Shown one piece after another: positions 1 through 11,414 of a stretch of DNA of 11,414 bases. How positions within the stretch are numbered: position 1 is the first letter of the stretch; every line of letters starts with the position of its first letter. The notes under the pieces are model-generated. The model had not been told where the DNA came from. It saw only the letters and a program-made list of their open reading frames with translations, and made no database searches. Source of the DNA: Peptococcaceae bacterium BRH_c23. GTDB lineage: Bacteria > Bacillota_B > Desulfitobacteriia > Desulfitobacteriales > Desulfitobacteriaceae. The stretch covers positions 1 through 11,414 of the forward strand of contig LADV01000160.1 in the NCBI GenBank assembly GCA_000961805.1, given 5' to 3'. Position numbers and translations under genes: made by a program.

Positions 1-62
1 AGGTTGCCGTCTTCTTTCGTCATATCCTGATTACAACAAATTACTTTAATCGGTTCGTTCAT
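1..62 (-). CDS. Unidentified protein, N-terminal 20 residues only
   Basis: The gene starts at an ATG at 62 and runs off the left edge of the window. A GGGTGGTGAG-type ribosome binding site lies a few bases upstream. The visible residues begin MNEPIKVICCNQDMTKEDGN, which is a hydrophilic start followed by a short strand ending in a Cys-Cys pair (residues 9 and 10). There is no signal peptide in what can be seen. I do not recognise the family and assign no function. It belongs to a separate transcription unit from the hyd operon, because a promoter-like element and an inverted repeat lie between hydF and this start. Confidence concerns the existence of a gene, not its identity. Confidence 0.55.
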   Translation of the reverse strand, partial: MNEPIKVICCNQDMTKEDGN

Positions 63-86: not shown

Positions 87-105
87 TATAGGGGTCTACC
101 CTATA
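87..105. repeat. Inverted repeat TATAGGG-N5-CCCTATA, possible operator
   Basis: A perfect 7-bp inverted repeat is separated by five bases (GTCTA). It ends 25 bp before the start codon of the left-edge gene, in its leader or promoter. GC-tract half-sites flanked by AT are typical of operators for CsoR/RcnR-type repressors, but the GGG-then-CCC order here differs from the copper CsoR sites I recall, so this assignment is only a guess. A small RNA hairpin in the leader is the alternative. Confidence 0.35.
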
Positions 106-190: not shown

Positions 191-250
191 ATTTAAAATA
201 ATAGACTATTAGTTTGAAAAACCTTTGAATAAAAGTTAACGTTTTTGTAA
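191..250 (-). promoter_or_regulatory. Shared promoter element, copy A (upstream of left-edge gene)
   Basis: On the minus strand this reads ATTACAAAA, then TTCAA (starting at 229), TTCAA (starting at 218), then a TATTAT -10-like box (203-198). The two TTCAA repeats are 11 bp apart and the second begins 15 bp upstream of the -10 box, the same geometry as in copies B and C. There is no TTGACA-like -35 box. The section 213-255 matches 10063-10105 at 34 of 43 positions. A transcript starting near 191 would have a leader of about 130 nt. Confidence 0.5.
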
Positions 251-395
251 TACTTACGTAATGATAAAACACAAATGTGTGTCTTTGATGAAAATAATAT
301 GAATTACTTATGAAACATAAACATTTAATATTCTTTTTATTTTTTTGCTGTTACTCATGTAGTCCTAGCCGACGTCTCAAGATTGGTTGAACGAC

Positions 396-1637
396 TCAAT
401 CTATATCAACATCTATCTCATCCATCATCTCTTGTAACGCCGGAAAAGGTGATAAAGCCCGCCGTAATATCCCCATCAAATAAGCGATACACACCCCGTA
501 ATTAACTATCGGCACCCCGGCCTCCTGCACCTTCGCCAGCCGCGCTAACATTTCGCGCCGGGTGATCATACACCCTCCGCAATGAACAACAAGTTTAAAC
601 TCAGAAAGGTTGGCCGGGAAGCTATTCCCGTTGCTAAAATGAAATTCCAGCTCGCCACCCACCTCCTGGCGCAACCAACGTGGTATCTTGACTTTGCCTA
701 TATCATCTTCCGTGCTGTGATGGGTACAGGCTTCGCTGATTAGCACCTTGTCTCCTGGACGTAGTTTGGCGATGGCTTTGGCTCCGGCCACCAGTGTCAG
801 CAAATCTCCTTTATTACGGGCAAACAGAATAGAGAAAGACGTTAAGAGTACCTCAGGCGGAGTGTCGGCGTCCGCTTTGAGAAAGACCTGGGAGTCCGTG
901 ATCACGATTTTCGGCTTACGGTTCAAAGTGGCGATGCACTCTTTTAATTCTCTTTCTTTGGCGACATAGACCATGGCATCATGGTCCAGAATATCCCGGA
1001 TCGTCTGCACCTGGGGCAGGATCAAACGCCCTTTGGGGGCCGCCAAATCAATGGGTACTACCAGAACAGCCAGATCACCGGGATCCAACAAATCTCCAAC
1101 AATTGTCTGCTCATCCCAGGCCACCGGTGCGTTTCTAACCATGGTCATTTTCAGCTCCGCTAGACCCGTACGCCGCAAAGTGCTGGTCATAACCGGCTTA
1201 AGCCCGAATTTTTCTTCGATTTCTGCCGGTTCATCGGCCGGAACCGAGCGTAAATCCGTTTTATTCAGTATTACGATCAAAGGTAATTTTTTTTCCTGCA
1301 CCCGCCGGGCAATTTCCAGTTCCAACTCCGATATGGAGTTACCGGTTACCAAAACCAGAAGCACCATATCGACTTGTTCTAGCACCTCCAAGGAACGCTG
1401 CACCCGTAGAGCACCCAATTCACCGCTGTCATCGATTCCCGCTGTATCAATAATCATCACCGGACCCAATGGCAGGATCTCCATTGCCTTAAAAACCGGA
1501 TCCGTGGTAGTACCGGGCACCTCAGACACCAAGGCAATCTGTTGATTGGTCAAAGCATTAATCAAACTGGACTTACCGACATTGCGACGGCCAAAAATGG
1601 CAATGTGCAGGCGGTTACCACGTGGAGTAGTTTCCAT
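396..1637 (-). CDS. hydF: [FeFe]-hydrogenase maturation GTPase HydF
   Basis: HydF is the scaffold that receives the 2Fe subcluster built by HydG and HydE and delivers it to apo-HydA in the cytoplasm. This 413-residue protein has the family's usual size and layout. An N-terminal Era-like GTPase domain carries the P-loop GRRNVGKSS (16-24), the PGTTTDP switch I segment (41-47), DTAG (64-67) and NKTD (125-128). A middle dimerisation region follows. The C-terminal cluster-binding domain has C304-x-H306 and H352-C353-G-G-C356, the HydF signature CxH...HCxxC that holds a [4Fe-4S] cluster. The ATG at 1637 is preceded by AAGGAG at good spacing. It is the last gene of the operon, 12 bp after aspA. No defects are visible. 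Confidence 0.97.
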   Translation of the reverse strand: METTPRGNRLHIAIFGRRNVGKSSLINALTNQQIALVSEVPGTTTDPVFKAMEILPLGPVMIIDTAGIDDSGELGALRVQRSLEVLEQVDMVLLVLVTGNSISELELEIARRVQEKKLPLIVILNKTDLRSVPADEPAEIEEKFGLKPVMTSTLRRTGLAELKMTMVRNAPVAWDEQTIVGDLLDPGDLAVLVVPIDLAAPKGRLILPQVQTIRDILDHDAMVYVAKERELKECIATLNRKPKIVITDSQVFLKADADTPPEVLLTSFSILFARNKGDLLTLVAGAKAIAKLRPGDKVLISEACTHHSTEDDIGKVKIPRWLRQEVGGELEFHFSNGNSFPANLSEFKLVVHCGGCMITRREMLARLAKVQEAGVPIVNYGVCIAYLMGILRRALSPFPALQEMMDEIDVDID

Positions 1638-1649
1638 GATTTTTTCTCC

Positions 1650-3059
1650 TTATCTTCTAATCCGACCCGGCCGGGTCACCTTGTCCGCTCTGATGATTTC
1701 ATCCAGTTCTTCGGCCGTAAAGAGCCCGGCAGCCAGGACAGTATCCCGCACCGAACGTCTCGAAGCCAAAGCTTCTTTGGCCAAAGCAGCAGCCACATCG
1801 TAACCCAGCAAAGGGCTGATAACCGTAATGATTCCGGTGCTGTTATCCAAGTACTCGCGACACTTGGCGGTTTCCGCCCTGATGCCGGAAATACAACGTT
1901 CTGCCAGTAATAACATTGCCTTGCTCAGATTGTGCATAGCCGGCAATAAATTCGCCGCGATCAAAGGCAAAAATCCGTTTAATTCCAGCTGCCCACCCTG
2001 AGCAGCCAAAGTGATCGCCAGATCCTGAGCCATGATCTGATAGCCTACCTGAGTGACTAGTTCCGGCAACACGGGATTGACCTTACCCGGCATGATTGAA
2101 GAACCGACCTGTAAATCCGGCAGTAGGATCTCACCCAAGCCGGCACGCGGCCCGGAAGATAGTAGGCGCAAATCGGCCGTGATTTTGATTAAACTGGTGG
2201 CATTGGCTTTAAGCAAACCGGATACTTCGACAAAAACATCGGCATTCTGCGTTCCATCAATCATATTCTCCTGGCGTGCCAAACCTAAGCCACTCAGTAA
2301 GCGCAGGCGCTCGATCACCATATAGATGTATTTGCGGGACGCATTTAGCCCAGTGCCGATGGCTGTGCCGCCTAGGTTGACCTGGCGCAGCCTCTCTTCC
2401 ACCTTATACAGGCGCCAGCGGTCACGGGCGATGGCTTCAGCCCAAGCGGCAAATTCCTGGCCCAGGGTTATCGGCACGGCATCCTGCATTTCGGTGCGCC
2501 CCACTTTGAGAACGCCGGCAAACTCCGCTTCCTTAGCCTGTAAAGCGCCCTGAAGGGTGGCACATGACTCAGCCAGGTGCCGTAGGAGCCTGATGGCGGC
2601 AAGACGTAAAGCGGTAGGATATACGTCATTAGTTGACTGAGACATATTCACATGGTTTAGGGGATGAACCAGGGAATAATCTCCCTTGTTTCCGCCCAGT
2701 AATTCGATCGCCCGGTTGGCAATGACCTCATTCACATTCATATTGGTTGAAGTACCAGCCCCGCCCTGCAAAGCATCTACAATAAACTGGTCGGCGAAGC
2801 GTCCTTCCGCCACCTCAGCCGCCGCCTGCGCGATGGCATTGCCTAGGGTCGGTTCTAATTCCTTCAAGGTCAGATTGGTTTCAGCCGCTGCCTGTTTTAC
2901 CAAACCTAGGGCTTTGATTAACTCCGGGTGCACGGGCTGCCCGGAAACACTAAAGTTTTCGGCAGCGCGCAACGTGTGAATCCCGTAATACGCTTCCGCG
3001 GGAATCTCCCTAGTTCCCAGCAAATCCTCTTCACGGCGGAATTTCACTTCTATCACCAT
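1650..3059 (-). CDS. aspA: Aspartate ammonia-lyase (aspartase), in the hydrogenase maturation operon
   Basis: The enzyme deaminates L-aspartate to fumarate and ammonium. The 469-residue product matches the roughly 470-residue aspartase/fumarase superfamily. Visible conserved segments are TSTNMN (103-108), STND (142-145), and the flexible-loop signature GSSIMPGKVNP (319-329) that carries the catalytic serine. The absence of other aspartase paralogs in view and the TSTNMN/GSSIMPGKVN pattern favour aspartase over fumarase, though activity cannot be read with certainty. I chose the ATG at 3059. An in-frame TTG at 3110 would add 17 residues that do not look like the family and has no better ribosome binding site; the site for 3059 is itself weak (TTAGGAATCGG, 13 nt away). 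The gene lies between hydE (81 bp) and hydF (12 bp), an arrangement I recall from other Clostridia. It may supply ammonium for the bridging dithiomethylamine ligand (inference). Confidence 0.9.
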   Translation of the reverse strand: MVIEVKFRREEDLLGTREIPAEAYYGIHTLRAAENFSVSGQPVHPELIKALGLVKQAAAETNLTLKELEPTLGNAIAQAAAEVAEGRFADQFIVDALQGGAGTSTNMNVNEVIANRAIELLGGNKGDYSLVHPLNHVNMSQSTNDVYPTALRLAAIRLLRHLAESCATLQGALQAKEAEFAGVLKVGRTEMQDAVPITLGQEFAAWAEAIARDRWRLYKVEERLRQVNLGGTAIGTGLNASRKYIYMVIERLRLLSGLGLARQENMIDGTQNADVFVEVSGLLKANATSLIKITADLRLLSSGPRAGLGEILLPDLQVGSSIMPGKVNPVLPELVTQVGYQIMAQDLAITLAAQGGQLELNGFLPLIAANLLPAMHNLSKAMLLLAERCISGIRAETAKCREYLDNSTGIITVISPLLGYDVAAALAKEALASRRSVRDTVLAAGLFTAEELDEIIRADKVTRPGRIRR

Positions 3060-3140
3060 CCCAAGTATCCGATTCCTAAGACCCCAACTTCTTGTAAGAA
3101 AAGAAAACAATACTTATTTCACTGAAAAAAACACTATAAC

Positions 3141-4217
3141 TTATTTCATAATTCGTTTTTGTTTTAATTCATGGGTTCGGATAAACCGACTGCTGTCACC
3201 CCGGCTGAGGTCTGCTGCCATGCCAACGGAATTAATCCTCCGTTCAATACAATACCGGCACTTACCCGACTCATCATTCAGACAAATCTTATTTTGATAT
3301 AGTTCATAAAGTTTCCTCACGGAGGAGGGCGTTAAAAGCGGCATCACAACGTTAGCCCCTGCTTGGAGGGCAAGCTCCCGACCTTGCGGGTGCAGGGTGC
3401 CCATGGCTGTCGCAGCGGGCAATAGAGACTCCGGAAGCAACAAACGGGTTAAAGCAACCATTACCAGGGTATCTTCAACTGTGCCTCCCTTTTCCCCCTT
3501 CAAGGGGGTTTCAGAGTGGGGAATGAAAGGTCCAATTCCCACCATATCCGGTTCCAGCTCTTGGAGATAACATAAATCTTCGGCAAGATCGATATGACTT
3601 TGTCCCGGTAACCCGACCATAAACCCGGCTCCCACCTGATACCCTATTTCCTTTAGGGCCTGTAGGCAGGCCAAACGGTTCTCCAACTTCATAGTAGGGT
3701 GTAGTTTAGCATACAACCGTTCGGAAGCGGTTTCATGCCGCATCAAAAAACGGTCCGCTCCTGCTCGAAAGTACGCTTCATATTCGTCTCTTTTTCTCTC
3801 CCCAATGGACAAGGTAATAGCTACGCCCGGAAACTTATCTTTAATACGTCTGATGATCTTGACAATAATGTCTTTGGTGTACCATAGATCTTCGCCGCTT
3901 TGCAGGACAAACGTCCGGTATCCCAAATTATAACCTTCCTGACAGCAGACCTGGATCTCCTCTGGGGTTAAGCGGTAACGCGAAAGCATAGGGTTAGATG
4001 CCCGAATCCCACAATAGAGACAGTCCTGTCGGCAGTGATTAGAGAACTCAATCAGTCCCCGCAGGTACACCTCGTCACCGTAATGCTTTTTTTTAGTCTC
4101 TAATGCATAGCCAAAAAGAGTTTGCCGATCCTCATCTTTAAGGTTTTGCAAAAGATAAATAATCTCTTCTTTTGTTAATTTATTGGTATTAAAAGCCTTT
4201 GCGATCAGTTCTAACAT
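3141..4217 (-). CDS. hydE: [FeFe]-hydrogenase maturase HydE, radical SAM
   Basis: HydE is a radical S-adenosylmethionine enzyme that acts on the iron-CO-CN-cysteine product of HydG during assembly of the H-cluster 2Fe unit. The cluster motif C-RQD-C-LY-C (CxxxCxxC) is at residues 62-69, followed by a TIM-barrel sequence with VLQSGED and VGIGPFIPH segments typical of HydE. A second, non-essential cluster motif C-x7-C-x2-C is at residues 312-323, almost exactly where Thermotoga maritima HydE has it. I chose the ATG at 4217 (358 aa) because GGTGG lies 5 nt upstream. An ATG at 4229 adds only four residues and has no Shine-Dalgarno sequence, but cannot be excluded. The gene follows hydG by 39 bp. 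A ThiH- or BioB-like role is unlikely given the matches and the neighbours. Confidence 0.96.
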   Translation of the reverse strand: MLELIAKAFNTNKLTKEEIIYLLQNLKDEDRQTLFGYALETKKKHYGDEVYLRGLIEFSNHCRQDCLYCGIRASNPMLSRYRLTPEEIQVCCQEGYNLGYRTFVLQSGEDLWYTKDIIVKIIRRIKDKFPGVAITLSIGERKRDEYEAYFRAGADRFLMRHETASERLYAKLHPTMKLENRLACLQALKEIGYQVGAGFMVGLPGQSHIDLAEDLCYLQELEPDMVGIGPFIPHSETPLKGEKGGTVEDTLVMVALTRLLLPESLLPAATAMGTLHPQGRELALQAGANVVMPLLTPSSVRKLYELYQNKICLNDESGKCRYCIERRINSVGMAADLSRGDSSRFIRTHELKQKRIMK

Positions 4218-4256
4218 CCCTACCACCATCTTTTTGGAAGAATTTTTTCTTTGTAA

Positions 4257-5723
4257 TCATAGATAAATGTCCCGTTCCCCCAGTTCCAACCTTTTGAGAG
4301 CCTCTTCTGTGTAATTCCGGATCTTCTCACTCTTTATTTCCTGTAAATGTTTCAGGATTGTCTCTTCGCCCACTTTCTGAGTCTCCGGTGAAGCATAATC
4401 CAACAGATATTCCTTAAAGGTGAGAATAGCGTTAGGCTGACAGACATTTTGGATCTCGCCGGATTTGGCCAGTGCCATAAACCTGTCCCCAGTTCGTCCC
4501 TGACGGTAACAAGCCGTACAATAACTTGGTAACCAACCCGAGTTACAGACACTATACAATACTTCATCCGGACTCCGATGGTCTTCGACTTCAAATTGGG
4601 GAGATTTCTCCTGGTTGGTAACGGCAGGATGGTCAGTTGTTGTCTTGTCCTGTTTTTCCGCTTCTTTAATGTATCCGCCGACACCGGTACACGAACCAGC
4701 GGAAATTTGGGAAATGCCAATACTCAGCAATCTGTCCCGCAGTTCCGGTCTCTCCCGTGTGGAAGCAATCATACCGGTATAGGGCACTGCTAAACGGATG
4801 ATGGCCACCAACCTCATGAATTCCTCATCACTGACAAGGTAAGGGAAAGTTTCATAATCTACCCCCCGGGCTGGGCGCAAGCGCGGTACAGAGATTGTGT
4901 GCGGCCCCACGCCAAAGCGTTGTTCCAGATGTAAAGCATGCATCATCAAGCCTAAGACTTCGAATTTATAGTCATAGAGCCCAAATAAGACCCCAAAACC
5001 TACATCATCAATCCCGGCGGTCATCGCCCGGTCATGAGCTGTCGTATGCCAATCATAATCTGCTTTGGGGCCAGCGGGATGCATCTTCTGGTAGGTTTCC
5101 CAGTGGTAGGTTTCCTGAAACAAAATATAGGTGCCAATACCAGCATCTTTCAACAATCTGTATTCTTCAACAGTAGTGGCGGCAATATTGACATTACAAC
5201 GCCGGATACTGCCGTTGGCGAATTTGATGTCGTAAATGGTCTTTAAGCAGTCCACTACGTATTCAATAGGACATTCCTCCGGGTGTTCACCGGCTTCCAA
5301 AGCAAGCCGTTTGTGACCCATGCCCTCTAAAACCTTTACCTCTCCTTTTATTTGTTCCATAGTAAGCTTTTGCCTGATGAACTTGTTATCCCGTTTATAG
5401 CCGCAATATACACAGCTATTGATACAATGATCGCTTAGATAGAGAGGTGCAAACAGAACAATCCGTTTTCCGTAGATTCTTTGCTTGATTTCCGCAGCTA
5501 CTTCGTACATCAGGCCTGTTAGTTCTGCATCTTCGTTTTCCAGTAAGACAGCAACTTCGAGTGGAGTCAAACCTTTCGCTGCGCGAGCTTTGGCAATTAT
5601 CATTCGAACTTGAGCAGTCGTCGCCTGTTTCCCTTGTTGCAGTAAATCCTTAATCTCCTGATCATAGATGAAGTCAGCTGCTTGCCATTCCCGATTAAAT
5701 GCTTCTCTTCTTGATAAAGTCAT
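4257..5723 (-). CDS. hydG: [FeFe]-hydrogenase maturase HydG, tyrosine-cleaving radical SAM lyase
   Basis: HydG cleaves tyrosine to p-cresol and dehydroglycine and turns the latter into the CO and cyanide ligands of the H-cluster iron. The 488-residue product has the radical SAM motif C-INS-C-VY-C at residues 100-107. The C-terminal HydG-specific auxiliary cluster motif C402-TA-C405-x22-C428, within CTACYRQGRTG, separates it from the related thiamine enzyme ThiH. I chose the ATG at 5723 because of its strong ribosome binding site. The frame stays open to an ATG at 5897, but that would overlap the end of hydA by 119 bp and add 58 residues unlike HydG. The 55-bp gap after hydA and the shared strand place it in the hyd operon. 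Confidence 0.97.
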   Translation of the reverse strand: MTLSRREAFNREWQAADFIYDQEIKDLLQQGKQATTAQVRMIIAKARAAKGLTPLEVAVLLENEDAELTGLMYEVAAEIKQRIYGKRIVLFAPLYLSDHCINSCVYCGYKRDNKFIRQKLTMEQIKGEVKVLEGMGHKRLALEAGEHPEECPIEYVVDCLKTIYDIKFANGSIRRCNVNIAATTVEEYRLLKDAGIGTYILFQETYHWETYQKMHPAGPKADYDWHTTAHDRAMTAGIDDVGFGVLFGLYDYKFEVLGLMMHALHLEQRFGVGPHTISVPRLRPARGVDYETFPYLVSDEEFMRLVAIIRLAVPYTGMIASTRERPELRDRLLSIGISQISAGSCTGVGGYIKEAEKQDKTTTDHPAVTNQEKSPQFEVEDHRSPDEVLYSVCNSGWLPSYCTACYRQGRTGDRFMALAKSGEIQNVCQPNAILTFKEYLLDYASPETQKVGEETILKHLQEIKSEKIRNYTEEALKRLELGERDIYL

Positions 5724-5729
5724 CCTTTT

Positions 5730-5737
5730 CACCTTCC
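5730..5737 (-). promoter_or_regulatory. Ribosome binding site deciding the hydG start
   Basis: GGAAGGTG lies 6 nt before the ATG at 5723. It selects this start over the open upstream extension, which begins inside the 3' end of hydA. Confidence 0.75.
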
Positions 5738-5778
5738 TTAGCTGGCAGTCTGCATTCTTACAGACAAATTCCACCGCG

Positions 5779-7584
5779 TTATCCCAGACAATCCCTTTTT
5801 GTGGGCAAATGTTCGTTATATATACCTCTATCCGTGTAGTGAGTATGCAATAACTCATGTGATTTGTGTCCCAAGGGGTGTCCAAGAAATTCTGCATATA
5901 AAGACTGAATCAAAGGATTCTCATGAGATTTTCGGAGCTGTTTACCCTCGTCTTCCTGATAAATTGCCGCTAAACGTTTCCTGCGAATTTCGGCTGTGGT
6001 CGGTCTCGGTTGACCTCCGCCACTAATACAGCCGCCGGGACAACCCATAACTTCAATAAAGTGATAAGGCGACTCTCCTTGAGCGATCTGCTCCATTAAG
6101 ATTTTAGCACCCTTAAGCCCGCTGGTTACAGCAACCTTAACCGTCACACCGCCCAGGAACTTATACTCAGGCAACGGATTTTCAATTACCAGATCAGCTG
6201 TCTTAATTCTCTCCAAACCGACGATCGGATGGACATGAAGCCCGTCAAACGGAAGTTCCCGTCCGGTTATAATTTCATAAACTGAGCGTAGGGCGGCTTC
6301 CATAACTCCGCCAGTAACACCGAAAATATCTGCTGCACCGGTCGATAGACCCAGCGGATTGTCGAAGTCGGATTCCGCCAAGGCCCGAAAATCAATCCCG
6401 GCCTCTTTAATCATCCTTGCCAATTCCCGAGTCGTTAGAACAGCATCGACATTGGCCTGGCCACCATTGGTCAGTTCCGGCCGGGTTACCTCAAACTTTT
6501 TAGCGGTACAGGGCATGATCGAGACGACAAAAATATCTTCCGGACGTATCCCGACCTTCTCAGCATAATAGCTCTTTGCCAATGCTCCGAGCATCATATG
6601 CGGCGACTTACAAGTAGAAAGGTGGTCAAGTTCAGCCGGGAATGCGTGCTCGACAAACTTCACCCATCCTGGACTACAACTGGTAATCATCGGTAAGACG
6701 GCACTGCTGCCGTTAAATACTTGCTGGATACGCTGCAAAAATTCGTTGCCTTCCTCCAAGATCGTCAAATCCGCCGCAAAATTGGTATCAAATACATCAT
6801 CAAAACCCATCTCTCGCAAGGCGGTAACCATTTTTCCCGTTACCAGAGTCCCCGGTTCATAACTGAATTCTTCCCCCAGAGCAGCCCGAATCGCCGGAGC
6901 TGTCTGGACAATAACCCGTTTCTTGGTGTCATGCAGGGCGTTCCAGACCTTGGTAATCGCGTCCTTCTCCTGCAAAGCGCCTACAGGACAAACAACCGTA
7001 CACTGACCACAAAAGGCACAGTTTACTGAATTCAGTTGCAGAGCCGCTGCTGGTCCGATCATTGTTTTAAAGCCCCGCTGCTGAGCATTTAGCACACCAA
7101 CACCCTGAATTTCATTACAAACGGTTATGCATCGGCGGCATAAAATGCATTTCGAGGTATCCCGCATGATGGAAGGAGATAAATCATCGAGGACACCTTT
7201 GGACTGTTGCCCGTTAAACCGCACTTCTTTAACTTGAATTAATTCCCCTAGTTTTTGCAGTTCACATGACTGGTTCCGCTCACAGTTCAAACAATCTTTC
7301 GGATGGTCAGAAAGCATTAACTCATAAAGGAGCTTCCGGGCTTTTTGTACCCGCTCCGTTTTAGTGTGAACAACCATGTCCTCTCTAACTGCGGTTATGC
7401 AGGAAGCTTGTAAATTTCTAGCACCTTCCACTTCCACCGCACATATCCGGCAGGAACCATATTTATGAACCCCTTCCAGATAGCACAAGCTAGGAATTAA
7501 GATATTATTCAGCTTGGCTGCTTCCAGAATTGTAGTTCCTTCCTTAACAGTTATCCTTTTATTATTTATAGTTAGATTTATCAT
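5779..7584 (-). CDS. hydA: NADH-linked [FeFe]-hydrogenase, catalytic subunit HydA (HndD type)
   Basis: This subunit reversibly reduces protons to H2 at the H-cluster, in the cytoplasm, as part of the HydABC trimer. The 601 residues have the modular order of HndD/HydA proteins. An N-terminal [2Fe-2S] domain has C34, C45, C48 and C62. A His-Cys3 [4Fe-4S] site has H94, C98, C101 and C107. Two ferredoxin-type [4Fe-4S] clusters use C146-C156 and C189-C199. The H-cluster domain contains L1 TSCSPGW (301-307), L2 MPCTAKKFE (357-365) and L3 EVMGCPGGCISGGGQP (511-526), followed by the small-subunit-like tail with SHENP and LGHKSHELLHTHY. L1 has Ser at the second position of the usual Cys-Cys pair. The start at 7584 is set by GGAGGG 6 nt upstream; an ATG 18 bp earlier overlaps that site. 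The 141-bp gap to hydB is unusually long for this operon. Confidence 0.97.
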   Translation of the reverse strand: MINLTINNKRITVKEGTTILEAAKLNNILIPSLCYLEGVHKYGSCRICAVEVEGARNLQASCITAVREDMVVHTKTERVQKARKLLYELMLSDHPKDCLNCERNQSCELQKLGELIQVKEVRFNGQQSKGVLDDLSPSIMRDTSKCILCRRCITVCNEIQGVGVLNAQQRGFKTMIGPAAALQLNSVNCAFCGQCTVVCPVGALQEKDAITKVWNALHDTKKRVIVQTAPAIRAALGEEFSYEPGTLVTGKMVTALREMGFDDVFDTNFAADLTILEEGNEFLQRIQQVFNGSSAVLPMITSCSPGWVKFVEHAFPAELDHLSTCKSPHMMLGALAKSYYAEKVGIRPEDIFVVSIMPCTAKKFEVTRPELTNGGQANVDAVLTTRELARMIKEAGIDFRALAESDFDNPLGLSTGAADIFGVTGGVMEAALRSVYEIITGRELPFDGLHVHPIVGLERIKTADLVIENPLPEYKFLGGVTVKVAVTSGLKGAKILMEQIAQGESPYHFIEVMGCPGGCISGGGQPRPTTAEIRRKRLAAIYQEDEGKQLRKSHENPLIQSLYAEFLGHPLGHKSHELLHTHYTDRGIYNEHLPTKRDCLG

Positions 7585-7590
7585 TGTTTG

Positions 7591-7596
7591 CCCTCC
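7591..7596 (-). promoter_or_regulatory. Ribosome binding site deciding the hydA start
   Basis: GGAGGG sits 6 nt before the ATG at 7584. The in-frame ATG at 7602 lies upstream of this site and so is unlikely to be the start. Confidence 0.75.
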
Positions 7597-7613
7597 TGTC
7601 ATAAATCGAGCAC

Positions 7614-7760
7614 TTAATTCAAGTATTGACTTTTTGTAAATTCCAGCATCTCGTTCGGGTCTTCACCCGGAATACCCATCATATTTCCGAACCGGGTTCC
7701 AAGCGTTACAGCAACGGCTAGACGCTTAGGCCGGAGAACTTTTCGGGACGAGTTTTTTTT
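7614..7760 (-). other. Coding-like +1-frame continuation after hydB (possible frameshifted hydB tail)
   Basis: After the hydB stop (7726-7728) the +1 reading frame stays open to a TAA at 7614 and encodes a protein-like stretch with TRFGNMMGIPGEDPNEML and ending KSQYLN. The frame passes through a run of eight A in the hydB coding sense (7753-7760). Loss of one A there would join it to hydB and give a protein of about 609 residues instead of 572. No ATG in this frame (7814, 7766 or the tandem ATGs further on) has a convincing ribosome binding site, which argues against a separate small gene. I do not recognise the peptide. It has no cysteines, so it is not a lost ferredoxin domain. It could be a sequencing indel, a slippage site, a decayed remnant, or chance. 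Confidence 0.3.
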
Positions 7761-9444
7761 GCGCATTTCGACATGCTTGGCAACTCTTATCCTGAATGTG
7801 TTCCTCATACTCATGGCGGAAATACTTAATCGTACTCAGAACAGGGTTGGGTGCTGTTTGTCCTAAACCGCAGATGGCTGTCTCCCTGATGTTTTCTCCT
7901 AATTCCTCTAACAGTTCGATGTCTCCTTCGCGGCCTTCACCTCGCATGATCCGTTCAAGTATTTCCAGCATACGCTTAGTACCAGTCCGGCAGGGAACAC
8001 ACTTACCGCAAGACTCATCTTGCACAAATTCCATAAAGAAACGGGCCACGTCCACCATACAGGCATCTTCATCCATAACGATAAGTCCGCCTGAGCCCAT
8101 AATGGCTCCGAGTTTGATTAACGAATCGTAATCAACAGGAGTGTCAAGATATTCCTTAGTTATACAGCCGCCAGAAGGACCTCCTGTTTGGGCAGCTTTA
8201 AACTCTTTCTTTTTAGGAATACCGCCGCCGATTTTGAAGAGAATGTCACCTAAGCTCATTCCCATGGGAACTTCAACCAATCCGGTATTGACTACATTAC
8301 CGGCAAGGGCAAATACCTTAGTCCCCTTGCTACTGGCAGTCCCATACTGTGTAAACCACTCACAACCGTTTAAGACAATGGGAGCTATATTGGCATATGT
8401 TTCGACATTATTAATAATTGTTGGCTTGGCAAATAACCCGCTTTGGCAGGGGTACGGTGGTTTTTGCCTTGGTTCGCCGCGTTTTCCTTCTATCGAATGC
8501 ATTAACGCCGTTTCTTCCCCGCAGACAAAAGCACCGGCACCAATGCGAATTTCTATATCAAATGAGAATGCGCTTCCCAAGATATTCTCCCCTAACAATC
8601 CGGCTACCCGGGCTTGGTCAATCGCGTGTTCCAAACGTTCCACGGCCAGTGGGTATTCAGCTCGGACATAAACATAGCCTTTGTGGGCACCAATGGCATA
8701 TCCGCCAATCATCATTCCCTCTATGATGCTGTGGGGATCTCCTTCCAGAATGCTGCGATCCATAAAAGCACCAGGATCACCTTCATCAGCATTGCAGACG
8801 ATGTATTTAACACTACCAGCGGCTTTTAATCCAGCTTCCCACTTCACTCCTGTGGGAAAACCTCCGCCACCACGTCCGCGCAGGCCTGATTTTTTGATTT
8901 CGTCAATCAGACTTTCCGGAGTCATCTCGACAACCGCTTTTGCAAAAGCCAGATAGCCGTCTCTTGATATATAGGCCGGAAGAGAAGAGTGATCAATTGC
9001 TCCGCAGTTTCGCAGGGCTATTTTTACCTGGGCTTTAAAAAAGTCAATATCCTTCAGACAGGGTACCCGTTTCATAAGTTGACGGTCGAAAAAGACTTTA
9101 TTCTCTACTATTTTGCCGTCGATAAGATGAGACTGGACGATCCCCGGAATATCAGCAGGCTTTAGCCTGGTATAAAAGGTTTCGCCCGGCGAAACTACCA
9201 TCACCGGCCCAATATCGCATGAACCGATACATCCCGTTTCAAATACGACGACATCCTGTTCTAAACCGTGCGCCTTGAGGGAATTGAGCAAAGCATCCTT
9301 AACTGCATGACAGTTAGTAGAGATACAACCTGCGCCGGAACAAACCAAAACAGTATAGTTGTATTTGCTGATAGCTTCATTGTAACTTGACCGAACTTTC
9401 ACAAGATCTTCTTTAGTATTGATATAGGAAAATGCGACTTGCAC
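7726..9444 (-). CDS. hydB: NADH-linked [FeFe]-hydrogenase, flavoprotein subunit HydB (NuoF-like)
   Basis: HydB is the diaphorase subunit: it binds FMN and NAD(H) and links them to the Fe-S chain into HydA. The N-terminal thioredoxin-like [2Fe-2S] domain has C35, C40, C72 and C76. The NuoF-type core has the FMN/NAD glycine-rich motif GLRGRGGGGFPTG (187-199), NADEGDPGAF (218-227) and CGEETAL (308-314). A [4Fe-4S] site has C479, C482, C485 and C525. The protein then ends within about 20 residues, so the two-[4Fe-4S] ferredoxin-like C-terminal domain of confurcating HydB proteins is absent. Only C555 and C558 remain in the tail, and no frame downstream holds a ferredoxin motif. The start is GTG, with AAGGGGTG 8 nt upstream and a 13-bp gap after hydC. 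The precise C-terminus is uncertain because of the downstream +1-frame continuation. Confidence 0.95.
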   Translation of the reverse strand: MQVAFSYINTKEDLVKVRSSYNEAISKYNYTVLVCSGAGCISTNCHAVKDALLNSLKAHGLEQDVVVFETGCIGSCDIGPVMVVSPGETFYTRLKPADIPGIVQSHLIDGKIVENKVFFDRQLMKRVPCLKDIDFFKAQVKIALRNCGAIDHSSLPAYISRDGYLAFAKAVVEMTPESLIDEIKKSGLRGRGGGGFPTGVKWEAGLKAAGSVKYIVCNADEGDPGAFMDRSILEGDPHSIIEGMMIGGYAIGAHKGYVYVRAEYPLAVERLEHAIDQARVAGLLGENILGSAFSFDIEIRIGAGAFVCGEETALMHSIEGKRGEPRQKPPYPCQSGLFAKPTIINNVETYANIAPIVLNGCEWFTQYGTASSKGTKVFALAGNVVNTGLVEVPMGMSLGDILFKIGGGIPKKKEFKAAQTGGPSGGCITKEYLDTPVDYDSLIKLGAIMGSGGLIVMDEDACMVDVARFFMEFVQDESCGKCVPCRTGTKRMLEILERIMRGEGREGDIELLEELGENIRETAICGLGQTAPNPVLSTIKYFRHEYEEHIQDKSCQACRNAQKKLVPKSSPA

Positions 9445-9457
9445 GACAATTCACCCC

Positions 9458-9958
9458 TTACTTATTCGTGTATTCACCAAGAATGGTATCCAACTCTTCA
9501 GGATTCACCCTCTGATAAACTGTGTCATTAACCGTCATTACTGGAGCAAGACCACAAGCACCAATACAACGCGCTACTTCCAGGGTAAAGAGACCTTCTT
9601 CCGTTGTCTCTCCCACTTTAATGTCTAACTTTTTCTTTAACTCATCGACGATCTTTTTAGCACCACGTACATAACAGGCAGTTCCCATACAGACCCTGAT
9701 CGTGTACTTTCCTCGAGGACGTAAAGCAAAGTAGGAATAAAACGTGACTACCCCATAAACCTCAGACAACGGCAACTCCATTTTTTCAGCTATGAATTGT
9801 TGCAGCTCAAGTGGCAGATACCCGAAAATTCCCTGGGCTATGTGCAGAATCTGGATTAGACTACCTTCATGAGCTTTGTACTCTTCGATGATTTCCGCGA
9901 TCCGTTGGTACTTCTCCTGGTCGTCTTCCAGACAACACGTGCATGTAGAATTAGACAT
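9458..9958 (-). CDS. hydC: NADH-linked [FeFe]-hydrogenase, [2Fe-2S] subunit HydC (NuoE-like)
   Basis: This small electron-transfer subunit binds one [2Fe-2S] cluster next to the flavin subunit HydB. The 166-residue product has the NuoE/24-kDa thioredoxin-like fold signature. An N-terminal helical part carries LIQILHIAQGIFGYLP and PLSEVYGVVTFYSYF, then the cluster ligands C90, C95 (CMGTAC), C131 and C135 (CIGACGLAP). The first nine residues contain three extra cysteines (C6, C8, C9), unusual but of unknown meaning. The ATG at 9958 has GGGAGGTG about 8 nt upstream. It is the first gene of the hyd operon, with a leader of about 83 nt from the predicted promoter. Confidence 0.96.
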   Translation of the reverse strand: MSNSTCTCCLEDDQEKYQRIAEIIEEYKAHEGSLIQILHIAQGIFGYLPLELQQFIAEKMELPLSEVYGVVTFYSYFALRPRGKYTIRVCMGTACYVRGAKKIVDELKKKLDIKVGETTEEGLFTLEVARCIGACGLAPVMTVNDTVYQRVNPEELDTILGEYTNK

Positions 9959-10031
9959 TACCGAAACACCTCCCGAAAAATTACTTGATCCAATACCTAA
10001 CCAAACTGCTTGATGATATGGGGCTAGGCCC

Positions 10032-10100
10032 TTGAATCGATACTTGAATTATAAATAATTAATTTGAAGAACTCTTGAATTAAAAATAACGCTTTTGTAA
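10032..10100 (-). promoter_or_regulatory. Shared promoter element, copy B (hyd operon promoter)
   Basis: Read on the minus strand, TTACAA starts at 10100, TTCAA at 10079 and TTCAA at 10068, followed by a perfect TATAAT at 10053-10048. Two further TTCAA copies (ending at 10044 and 10032) lie at and after the -10 box. Spacings between successive repeats are about 20, 11, 20 and 12 bp, that is, one or two helical turns, so the repeats face the same side of the DNA. No -35 box is present, which fits activator-dependent transcription. The 43 bp at 10038-10080 match copy C at 39 positions. Confidence 0.6.
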
Positions 10101-10111
10101 TATTCTCTTCA

Positions 10112-10134
10112 AAACGGACTTTGAAAGCCCGTTT
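10112..10134. repeat. Imperfect palindrome upstream of the hyd promoter
   Basis: AAACGG-A-CTTT-G-AAAG-C-CCGTTT is symmetric except for one mismatched pair. As minus-strand RNA it would form a 9-bp stem (one G-U pair) with a UUCAA loop followed by only four U. It could be an operator, a weak terminator, or chance. It lies about 60 bp upstream of the predicted -10 box. Confidence 0.35.
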
Positions 10135-10215
10135 CCTGAAACTTCATTCCTTGCTGCTTTGCCATAATTATTAGTTGCTTTTTTCTATATTTCCTTGGAT
10201 CTAGGTACAAAAACA

Positions 10216-10254
10216 AATGACCTAATATCCTTGTTTTCAGGATATTAGGTCATT
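10216..10254 (-). terminator. Rho-independent terminator of the tatC-DUF2933 operon
   Basis: A perfect 15-bp stem (AATGACCTAATATCC at 10216-10230 against 10240-10254) has a 9-base loop. On the minus strand the stem is followed by a T-rich tract (TTTGTTTTTG). It begins 11 bp past the stop of the DUF2933 gene and separates that operon from the hyd operon. Confidence 0.9.
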
Positions 10255-10265
10255 GTATGCCCAGT

Positions 10266-10505
10266 TTATTCTTGTTTACAATTTTCCCCATCTGCTACAT
10301 CTTGATGTTTATGATTATGAGACATGAATTTCATCATTACTAAATGTCCCAATGGACAAGCCAATATTAATAACACCCATAATCCATTTTTTACACCTGA
10401 ACTTTGCAAGTTTAACGATGACAGTACTGCTAGCAGAACAATCGGTACCAAACAGCATAGTAACATTAAGATGCCATGTGATAAATGTCCACCTTTATTT
10501 TTCAT
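10266..10505 (-). CDS. Small DUF2933-type membrane protein
   Basis: A 79-residue protein with two predicted membrane helices, about residues 10-29 (ILMLLCCLVPIVLLAVLSSL) and 41-58 (NGLWVLLILACPLGHLVM), and a charged, His-rich tail (SHNHKHQD). The HLSHG...LLCCLVP and CPLGHLVMMKFM patterns resemble the DUF2933 family, whose function I do not know. Cys-Cys, Cys-Pro and several His residues could bind metal (inference). I chose the ATG at 10505 for its strong GGAGGG. A start at 10556 would overlap the tatC stop in an ATGA arrangement but has no ribosome binding site. Either way it is co-transcribed with tatC and is the last gene before the terminator. Confidence 0.75.
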   Translation of the reverse strand: MKNKGGHLSHGILMLLCCLVPIVLLAVLSSLNLQSSGVKNGLWVLLILACPLGHLVMMKFMSHNHKHQDVADGENCKQE

Positions 10506-10511
10506 TTTGCG

Positions 10512-10517
10512 CCCTCC
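10512..10517 (-). promoter_or_regulatory. Ribosome binding site deciding the DUF2933 gene start
   Basis: GGAGGG lies 6 nt before the ATG at 10505 and favours it over in-frame ATGs at 10556, 10529 and 10520. Confidence 0.65.
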
Positions 10518-10552
10518 CATTATGCTCATCACTTCCTGTGAATTATTTTGTC

Positions 10553-11284
10553 TCATGCATAGTTAACATTTTCTTTCTTCATCTTGTTTTTTTCCATAAA
10601 ATAAATAACCCAGATGCTCGATTCGTAGAGAAGAAGTACTGGGGCAGAGATGGCCACTAGAGTTAAAACGTCTGGGGTAGGTACGATCAGACCTATGAGG
10701 AGAAGGACTCCAATGTAGCCATATAGTCGCGTATTTCTAAGCTTTCTTGATTTTACTAAGCCCAGCCGGCTGAGGGCTATCATTACGATGGGAATTTCAA
10801 AAAAAACACCCATACCAAATGTTAATAATAATAGGAAAGAAAAATATTTACCACCCAGAAGCATAGGGTTAAGGTAACCCTCTCCAACCCCCATAAAAAA
10901 TCGTAGTACTAAAGGGAAAATCACTTGATTACCAAAACCTGCTCCCAAAGCAAAAAGGATCAATGCCGGTGGAATGGCAGAGAAAATCGTCTTCCGTTCT
11001 TGTCGAGTACAGCCTGGCATAATAAACGCAATGGCTTGGTAAATAAGCACCGGCAGGCTAACCATAATCCCCCCTACGACTGCTATTTGAATCGTTGTAA
11101 AAAACCCATCAGCAGGACCGATAAAGTACAGTTGCTTTCCACTTAAAGGAGCCGTAAGCCACATGATAACTTTATCCATATTTAGATAAATCACGGTGGC
11201 GCCGGCGAGCAGCGCCACAGATGAAATAATGAGACGGTATCTGAGCTCCCCCAAATGATCTGTCACTGTCATCTGCTTATCCAT
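10553..11284 (-). CDS. tatC: Sec-independent protein translocase subunit TatC
   Basis: TatC is the membrane receptor for twin-arginine signal peptides and with TatA exports folded, often cofactor-loaded proteins. The 243-residue product has the expected length and six hydrophobic segments. Family landmarks are the N-terminal HLGELRYRL (10-18), PGCTRQERK (90-98, conserved Glu96), FGMGVFFEIP (156-165, Glu163) and the VPTPD loop (201-205), followed by the last two helices. The ATG at 11284 has AGGAGGGGC just upstream. Its stop overlaps the first possible ATG of the DUF2933 gene. No tatA is visible in the window; it may lie elsewhere. The HydABC hydrogenase has no Tat signal, so this gene is not needed for its export. 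Confidence 0.95.
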   Translation of the reverse strand: MDKQMTVTDHLGELRYRLIISSVALLAGATVIYLNMDKVIMWLTAPLSGKQLYFIGPADGFFTTIQIAVVGGIMVSLPVLIYQAIAFIMPGCTRQERKTIFSAIPPALILFALGAGFGNQVIFPLVLRFFMGVGEGYLNPMLLGGKYFSFLLLLTFGMGVFFEIPIVMIALSRLGLVKSRKLRNTRLYGYIGVLLLIGLIVPTPDVLTLVAISAPVLLLYESSIWVIYFMEKNKMKKENVNYA

Positions 11285-11371
11285 ATGCCCCTCCTTTTCG
11301 AGGAAAATTTATAATGTATTTACCGAATCTCCTGTGGTTCTATGCCGAGGATGGTAACCTTAGGATTTTCT

Positions 11372-11414
11372 CGATACTTGAATTATAAATGACCAATTTG
11401 AAGAACCCTTGAAT
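11372..11414 (-). promoter_or_regulatory. Shared promoter element, copy C (tatC promoter), cut by the window edge
   Basis: On the minus strand, TTCAA starts at 11413 and 11402, followed by TATAAT at 11387-11382, with the same 11-bp and 15-bp spacings as copy B. Of 43 positions, 39 match copy B. A transcript starting near 11375 would have a leader of about 90 nt before tatC. The upstream part of the element lies outside the window. Confidence 0.6.

Follow-up and report, generated by a model that had tools for sequence, protein, structure and literature searches.

The stretch of DNA analysed here (11,414 nucleotides, referred to as the window) carries three copies of a promoter-like element ahead of different genes, and the question it raises is whether one regulator could act on all of them. 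According to the initial annotation, three minus-strand sites combine two TTCAA repeats 11 bp apart with a TATAAT or TATTAT box, 15 bp from the proximal repeat. A pattern search of the window recovered this arrangement, with exact matches to TTCAA-N6-TTCAA-N10-TATWAT, all on the minus strand, at 198-229, 10048-10079 and 11382-11413 (copies A, B and C; Table 1). Three copies of the pattern were obtained in none of 200 shuffled sequences (shuffle mean 0.06 at two or fewer mismatches), a figure to be read knowing that the pattern was picked after the sites had been seen. The -35 box had been described as missing, and in copies A, B and C the hexamers 16-18 bp 5' of the -10 box indeed match TTGACA at no more than two of six positions. 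Copies B and C are identical at 40 of 44 positions, consistent with the 39 of 43 first counted.

Table 1. Features of the window, in order of position.
Feature	Position	Strand	Remark
Start of probable csoR (MNEPIKVICCNQDMTKEDGN...)	1..62	-	cut by window edge; similarity to L078 csoR region
Palindrome TATAGGGTAGACCCCTATA	87..105	.	between copy A and left gene; comparable palindrome 5' of csoR in L078
Copy A, type 1	194..251	-	136 bp 5' of csoR-like gene
Copy A half-sites	TTACA 246-250, TTAAC 235-239, TTCAA 225-229, TTCAA 214-218; -10 TATTAT 198-203	-	
hydF	396..1637	-	TIGR03918
Aspartate ammonia-lyase-like gene (aspA)	1650..3062	-	NF008909
hydE	3141..4229	-	TIGR03956
hydG	4257..5726	-	TIGR03955
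[FeFe] hydrogenase, group A6	5779..7602	-	NF040763
nuoF-type subunit	7726..9444	-	
nuoE-type subunit	9458..9958	-	first gene behind copy B
Copy B, type 2	10044..10101 (10037..10101 with TATCGA)	-	90 bp 5' of nuoE
Copy B half-sites	TTACA 10096-10100, TTATT 10085-10089 (degenerate), TTCAA 10075-10079, TTCAA 10064-10068	-	
Copy B -10 and shared hexamer	TATAAT 10048-10053; TATCGA 10037-10042	-	
Terminator-like inverted repeat AATGACCTAATATCC...GGATATTAGGTCATT	10216..10254	.	from sequence; between tatC unit and copy B
Small membrane protein, DUF2933	10266..10556	-	PF11666; overlaps tatC end
tatC	10553..11284	-	behind copy C; TIGR00945; 94% to Desulfosporosinus burensis TatC
Copy C, type 2	11371..11414	-	98 bp 5' of tatC; cut at window end, upstream half outside
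Copy C parts	TTCAA 11409-11413, TTCAA 11398-11402; -10 TATAAT 11382-11387; TATCGA 11371-11376	-	

The element is real, as claimed, but it spans some 55 bp, not some 32. It begins at ATTACAAAA and can be read as four TTMAA-like half-sites in steps of 11, 10 and 11 bp, which in copy A stand at element positions 2 (TTACA), 13 (TTAAC), 23 and 34 (both TTCAA), with the -10 box at 49. The block ATTACAAAA is common to copies A and B, as had been noticed, but starts 22 bp, not 20 bp, ahead of the distal TTCAA.

On a broader scale, searching one family (that of G266, 45 genomes) with the pattern returned a single match, in the genome G527. With PWMs applied to the loci examined, G527 was seen to carry three copies and G521 a single one. 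With the upstream-block PWM, these four and window copies A and B scored 36.4-40.5, several of them having trained it, and the next best hit scored 14.6. A sequence-only model built from seven copies was then run over the 45 family genomes and 82 class genomes. In the family, scoring covered 124 of up to ~2,200 candidates in each genome, and four strong matches (54.8-62.3 bits, next 20.2) were found, each ahead of a gene; at E<=1, 41 of the 45 genomes had some match, those other than the strong four reaching at most 20.2 bits among the matches listed. In the class (68 candidates per genome scored), two of 82 genomes had a match at E<=0.001. Scatter through genomes as a repeat family was thus not seen, and the four strong matches, each before a gene, favour a functional promoter-type element over chance or a dispersed repeat, as had been proposed.

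G527 probably represents Peptococcaceae bacterium BRH_c23, given that the response regulator RR1 of G527, discussed below, is identical to a protein named from that organism. Its three strong copies lie inside 6.6 kb: D1 is 5' of a tatC paralogue (36% to the window TatC), D2 is 88 bp 5' of the genes for the [NiFe] small subunit, with a Tat signal, and large subunit, and D3 is 48 bp 5' of a HycI-type maturation protease gene followed by a NicO nickel transporter gene. Copy E, in G521, precedes the same kind of tatC as D1 and lies just 3' of two genes, csoR and one for a P-type ATPase that has heavy-metal domains. Copy F, in G540, is diverged and weak (18.3 bits, E 0.0086) but is the best match of its genome. 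It lies 5' of a [NiFe] small subunit gene orthologous to the one behind D2, its two readable pieces sharing 83% and 85% identity with the G527 subunit. Over the 1.4-1.5 kb compared between G540 and G527, only the element aligned beyond the gene and a few preceding bases (E 0.002; others E 0.9). SigI/RsgI-like sigma/anti-sigma pairs are also encoded in the three relatives (L046 72-1839 in G527, L078 1566-3370 in G521, L126 2534-4316 in G540).

The element is conserved, stands ahead of genes with a fixed geometry and, in G527, is confined to one hydrogenase island. The small regulon suggested at the outset stood in part: the association of hydrogenase and Tat genes is supported, since in other genomes the same element is found 5' of [NiFe] genes, of a gene for a hydrogenase protease and of a tatC paralogue. 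In G527, the one genome with several copies, the regulon is confined to a single island, and the left gene of the window is probably csoR-like, where copy A may be only a second promoter. A regulon reaching beyond the hydrogenase island is not supported.

The proximal pattern with two mismatches was found in none of 113 genomes of the Desulforamulus class, a search in which a copy as diverged as F would be missed, and the exact pattern had no match in the first 29 hydG-bearing loci or in viral_contigs; plasmids likewise gave no match. In a phylum sample, four of 398 genomes matched the proximal pattern with two mismatches, none of them convincing and all by eye without the upstream block (a copy diverged like F would again be missed); two of the four, L032 and L033, outscore copy E on the proximal-half PWM, so it is the upstream block that separates them. 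A looser pattern gave two matches in 11 genomes, both without this block. The window-type tatC of G540 (68%) comes after a second tatC and genes of hypA-hypB type on a 5.8-kb contig from which the element is absent, and a tatC search in the G458 family (10 genomes) gave one weak match (30%). In G523 and G525, tandem tatC and [NiFe] genes occur, with the element absent from the stretches read (20 and 14 kb, respectively). Tandem tatC paralogues within [NiFe] hydrogenase clusters (L077 3186-4969, L079 8536-10024, L080 9528-11016) point to a Tat translocase dedicated to hydrogenase.

Across the eight copies, the distance from the proximal half-site to the -10 box is 15 bp without exception (the -10 box of F being TAAGAT), and the step within the TTCAA pair is 11 bp in seven and 10 bp in E, which has lost one base inside the pair yet retained the 15 bp. 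In copy F, TTACA, TTAAA, TTCCC, TTCAA and TAAGAT occupy the positions of copy A; besides this TTCCC as distal member of the pair, the proximal member is TTCAT in D3, and degeneracy of half-sites 2 and 3 is seen in copies B, D2, D3 and F. Conservation reaches 0.875 in the half-site and -10 columns and 0.644 in the filler (eight copies), the columns having been picked after looking; random column sets scored as high at frequencies of 0.0008 (all eight), 0.0022 (A, B, F) and 0.03 (D2, F), and for A versus B alone the excess is not significant (0.08). Two types can be recognised, type 1 comprising A, D1, D2 and E and type 2 comprising B, C and D3, the latter marked by TATCGA 3' of the -10 box. As both types are present in the window and in G527, they arose before the lineages split or were exchanged.

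The diverged filler between conserved positions had been taken as an argument against duplication, and this was borne out only in part: copy F keeps the geometry, whereas the terminator block next to copy B recurs, near-identical, beside D3 (L046, ~12740-12800), with different genes downstream. Since B and D3 share a nearby terminator in addition to the element, entire stretches between genes have been duplicated or relocated, the terminator apparently travelling together with the promoter. Recent intergenic duplications, or a small mobile repeat, could produce this picture and the close identity of B and C without any shared regulation; nevertheless, strong copies are few and close to gene starts, similarity ends at the promoter boundaries and F has diverged with its geometry retained, all of which makes this explanation very unlikely.

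Conservation is highest in distal columns 1-12 (0.94) and lowest in the spacer ahead of the -10 box (0.41). The former value would suit a regulator of another family (e.g. of LysR, MerR or CRP/FNR type) binding the conserved TTACAAAAACGTTA block, the TTCAA repeats being incidental. Yet a strong inverted repeat was not found, the best arms being paired at 7 of 11 positions and placed differently between copies, and the proximal TTCAA stays 15 bp from the -10 box even in E, where a base was lost, so that we regard such a regulator as quite unlikely. The direct-repeat geometry is compatible with a regulator of the OmpR/PhoB type, whose sites the element had been noticed initially to resemble. In a direct-repeat autocorrelation, lag 11 came top of 20 lags, a modest signal (p 0.03, uncorrected).

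Pho boxes bound by PhoB in E. coli and PhoP in B. subtilis are direct repeats with a spacing of ~11 bp; they end ~10 bp 5' of the -10 box and replace the -35 box, four half-sites being typical of PhoP. The element shares with them both the ~11-bp direct repeats and their placement where a -35 box would stand, with an end ~10 bp from the -10 box, but differs in its half-sites (TTCAA/TTACA instead of CTGTCA or TTAACA), in the single 10-bp middle step and in the genes behind it, which serve hydrogenase and Tat functions rather than phosphate.

The element is most likely an activator-dependent promoter. Each copy would be a sigma-A-type promoter with a -10 but no -35 box, preceded by a ~37-bp site composed of TTACA, TTAAC, TTCAA and TTCAA in steps of 11, 10 and 11 bp. 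Membership of the regulator in the OmpR/PhoB class can be fairly inferred from this arrangement, and a protein of that family would most likely bind as two head-to-tail dimers, taking over the -35 contact and recruiting RNA polymerase in a class II activation, for which we favour activation over repression. Such promoters would head several operons of the hydrogenase island, namely those of the [NiFe] structural genes, the maturation protease and the hydrogenase-linked TatC, and in the window organism also the [FeFe] hydrogenase of group A6 along with its maturases, and the probable csoR. Taken as a whole, the reading of an activator-dependent promoter with an OmpR/PhoB-family site in place of the -35, repeated at the heads of island operons, is one on which we stand evenly balanced. 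With copies ahead of several operons, one signal would turn the island on together, and the distribution suggests that one regulator switches its gene sets on jointly.

An alternative sigma factor of SigI type, encoded near the island, might instead recognise the element as its promoter. In G527, G521 and G540, proteins with Sigma-70 region 2 and with RsgI domains are indeed encoded close to RR1 or to the element. SigI promoters, however, look unlike this element, seven of the eight copies have an ordinary TATAAT or TATTAT -10 box and conservation reaches ~48 bp 5' of it, past the contacts of a sigma factor alone; this possibility appears extremely improbable.

Among candidate activators, RR1, an OmpR-family regulator of G527 (L046 1964-2656), is intact in G527 and G540 and truncated in G521, these being the three relatives with the element. 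Among its relatives in the 45 genomes, that of G540 ranks best after G527 itself (62%, 305 bits), the others staying at or below 56% and 249 bits; the G521 fragment is 87% identical over 62 residues and lies beside a split kinase. In the tree, which was drawn open, RR1 of G527 and of G540 (the latter on a long branch) group with proteins of T. fracticalcis and C. formicaceticum (support 89/82), two organisms which also carry the window-type TatC (67% and 66%, respectively). RR1 further groups with proteins named ResD and SrrA by their sources. Two observations count against RR1: Desulforamulus and Desulfotomaculum have relatives of it at 69-73%, within the class whose 113 genomes gave no match to the proximal pattern, and the best 120 proteins listed include none from the 570-kb contig of D. 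burensis. The kinase next to RR1 is split in G521 (L078 9046-10270) and down to a remnant of 28 residues in G527 (L046 2661-2744), while none adjoins RR1 on the 9.4-kb contig of G540. The control system may be decaying, as suggested by the split or remnant kinase, the truncated RR1 and the missing base in the element of G521.

We tentatively consider this ResD/SrrA-like response regulator the best regulator candidate; none of the three relatives read has an intact kinase beside it, so its identity as the activator is unproven, and naming the regulator itself is a guess. The state of the kinase would also suit a housekeeping regulator of the OmpR family, ResD/WalR-like and conserved in nearly all genomes of the family, for which the island evolved good sites, RR1 being irrelevant. 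OmpR-family relatives of RR1 with similar recognition helices are indeed present in 44 of the 45 genomes at E<=1e-55, but the element is absent from most genomes with such regulators and the three strong copies of G527 in one island are odd for a global regulator, which renders this scenario unlikely. Two other systems near the island were rejected. RR2/HK2 of G527 (L046 8264-10390) matched at E<=1e-60 in three of the 45 genomes, namely G527 and two at 53-54% without a strong element, and the match of the RR2 DNA-binding domain stops at 44 of 77 positions. RR3/HK3 (L127 11664-13765), with HK3 matches in 35 of the 45 genomes, is not island-specific.

RR1 resembles ResD/SrrA-type regulators in its grouping, and departs from them in its broken or non-adjacent kinase; ResD sites differ from this element. 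HoxA and HupR are NtrC-type response regulators dedicated to hydrogenase genes which act from upstream, HoxA with sigma-54. The regulator proposed here would likewise be dedicated to hydrogenase, whereas the element shows a TATAAT -10 box and a proximal site. A doubtful but possible extension of the preferred reading is that a ResD/SrrA-like regulator, its kinase lost or broken in the relatives read, runs the island through the four-half-site promoter, which in the window lineage was copied onto the A6 [FeFe] operon and csoR. If true, one switch would serve [NiFe] uptake and [FeFe] turnover as well as Tat export, the supply of nickel and copper control.

The copper branch depends on the left gene, described initially as an unknown Cys-Cys protein and more probably a CsoR-type copper repressor. 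Its upstream region, together with the very start of the gene, is 84% identical over 137 bp to the csoR region of G521 (L078; the gene there is PF02583); six of the first 20 residues are identical, and this lower likeness leaves the assignment probable rather than certain. The palindrome between copy A and the left gene resembles CsoR operators. In G521 the matching DNA ends short of copy A and no element lies there 5' of csoR, so copy A may be a second csoR promoter or a relic of rearrangement; with a copper-operator-like palindrome belonging to the left gene itself, copy A may be no more than a second promoter there. Like CsoR-copA copper operons, the window has a probable csoR gene with an operator-like palindrome, and a P-type ATPase gene lies beside the island in G521 and G527. 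Unlike in such operons, the element and the CsoR palindrome are distinct, and the G521 copy of the element is 3' of copA instead of 5' of csoR.

Literature searches, judged by title and start of abstract, listed no paper describing such an element shared within a hydrogenase island. BRH_c23 comes from an H2-fed borehole experiment in Opalinus Clay, and the report on it states that type 1 [NiFe] hydrogenases were undetected in the proteomes of five heterotrophs, c23 being included according to its list of seven (PMC5067608). The organism nonetheless encodes a Tat-exported [NiFe] hydrogenase (L046 4562-6998 of G527), and the failure to detect it in that proteome would fit a switched-off island, non-detection in itself proving nothing. 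The finding offers a concrete, testable cis-element through which some anaerobic Firmicutes may switch on hydrogen use, and this bears on how H2 is consumed in clay rock and in waste repositories. The prediction is that two unrelated hydrogenases, an exported [NiFe] and a cytoplasmic [FeFe] enzyme, are placed under one switch together with a hydrogenase-linked Tat component, and the finding also suggests that within a metabolic island one promoter was copied from operon to operon.

In D. burensis, the [NiFe] small subunit (97% to that of G527) and the TatC 94% identical to that of the window are both encoded on 570,468-bp contigs, presumably one and the same, so that a [NiFe] hydrogenase may adjoin the window genes. 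The genes behind copy B follow the order nuoE-nuoF-hydA(group A6)-hydG-hydE-aspA-hydF, and the top identity among 29 hydG loci, 76%, is to Desulforamulus putei; the maturation genes of Desulforamulus loci are ordered aspA-hydF-hydE-hydG, unlike those of the window. An aspartate ammonia-lyase-like gene amid [FeFe] maturation genes is also found in Desulforamulus and several other loci (L001, L004, L010 and others).
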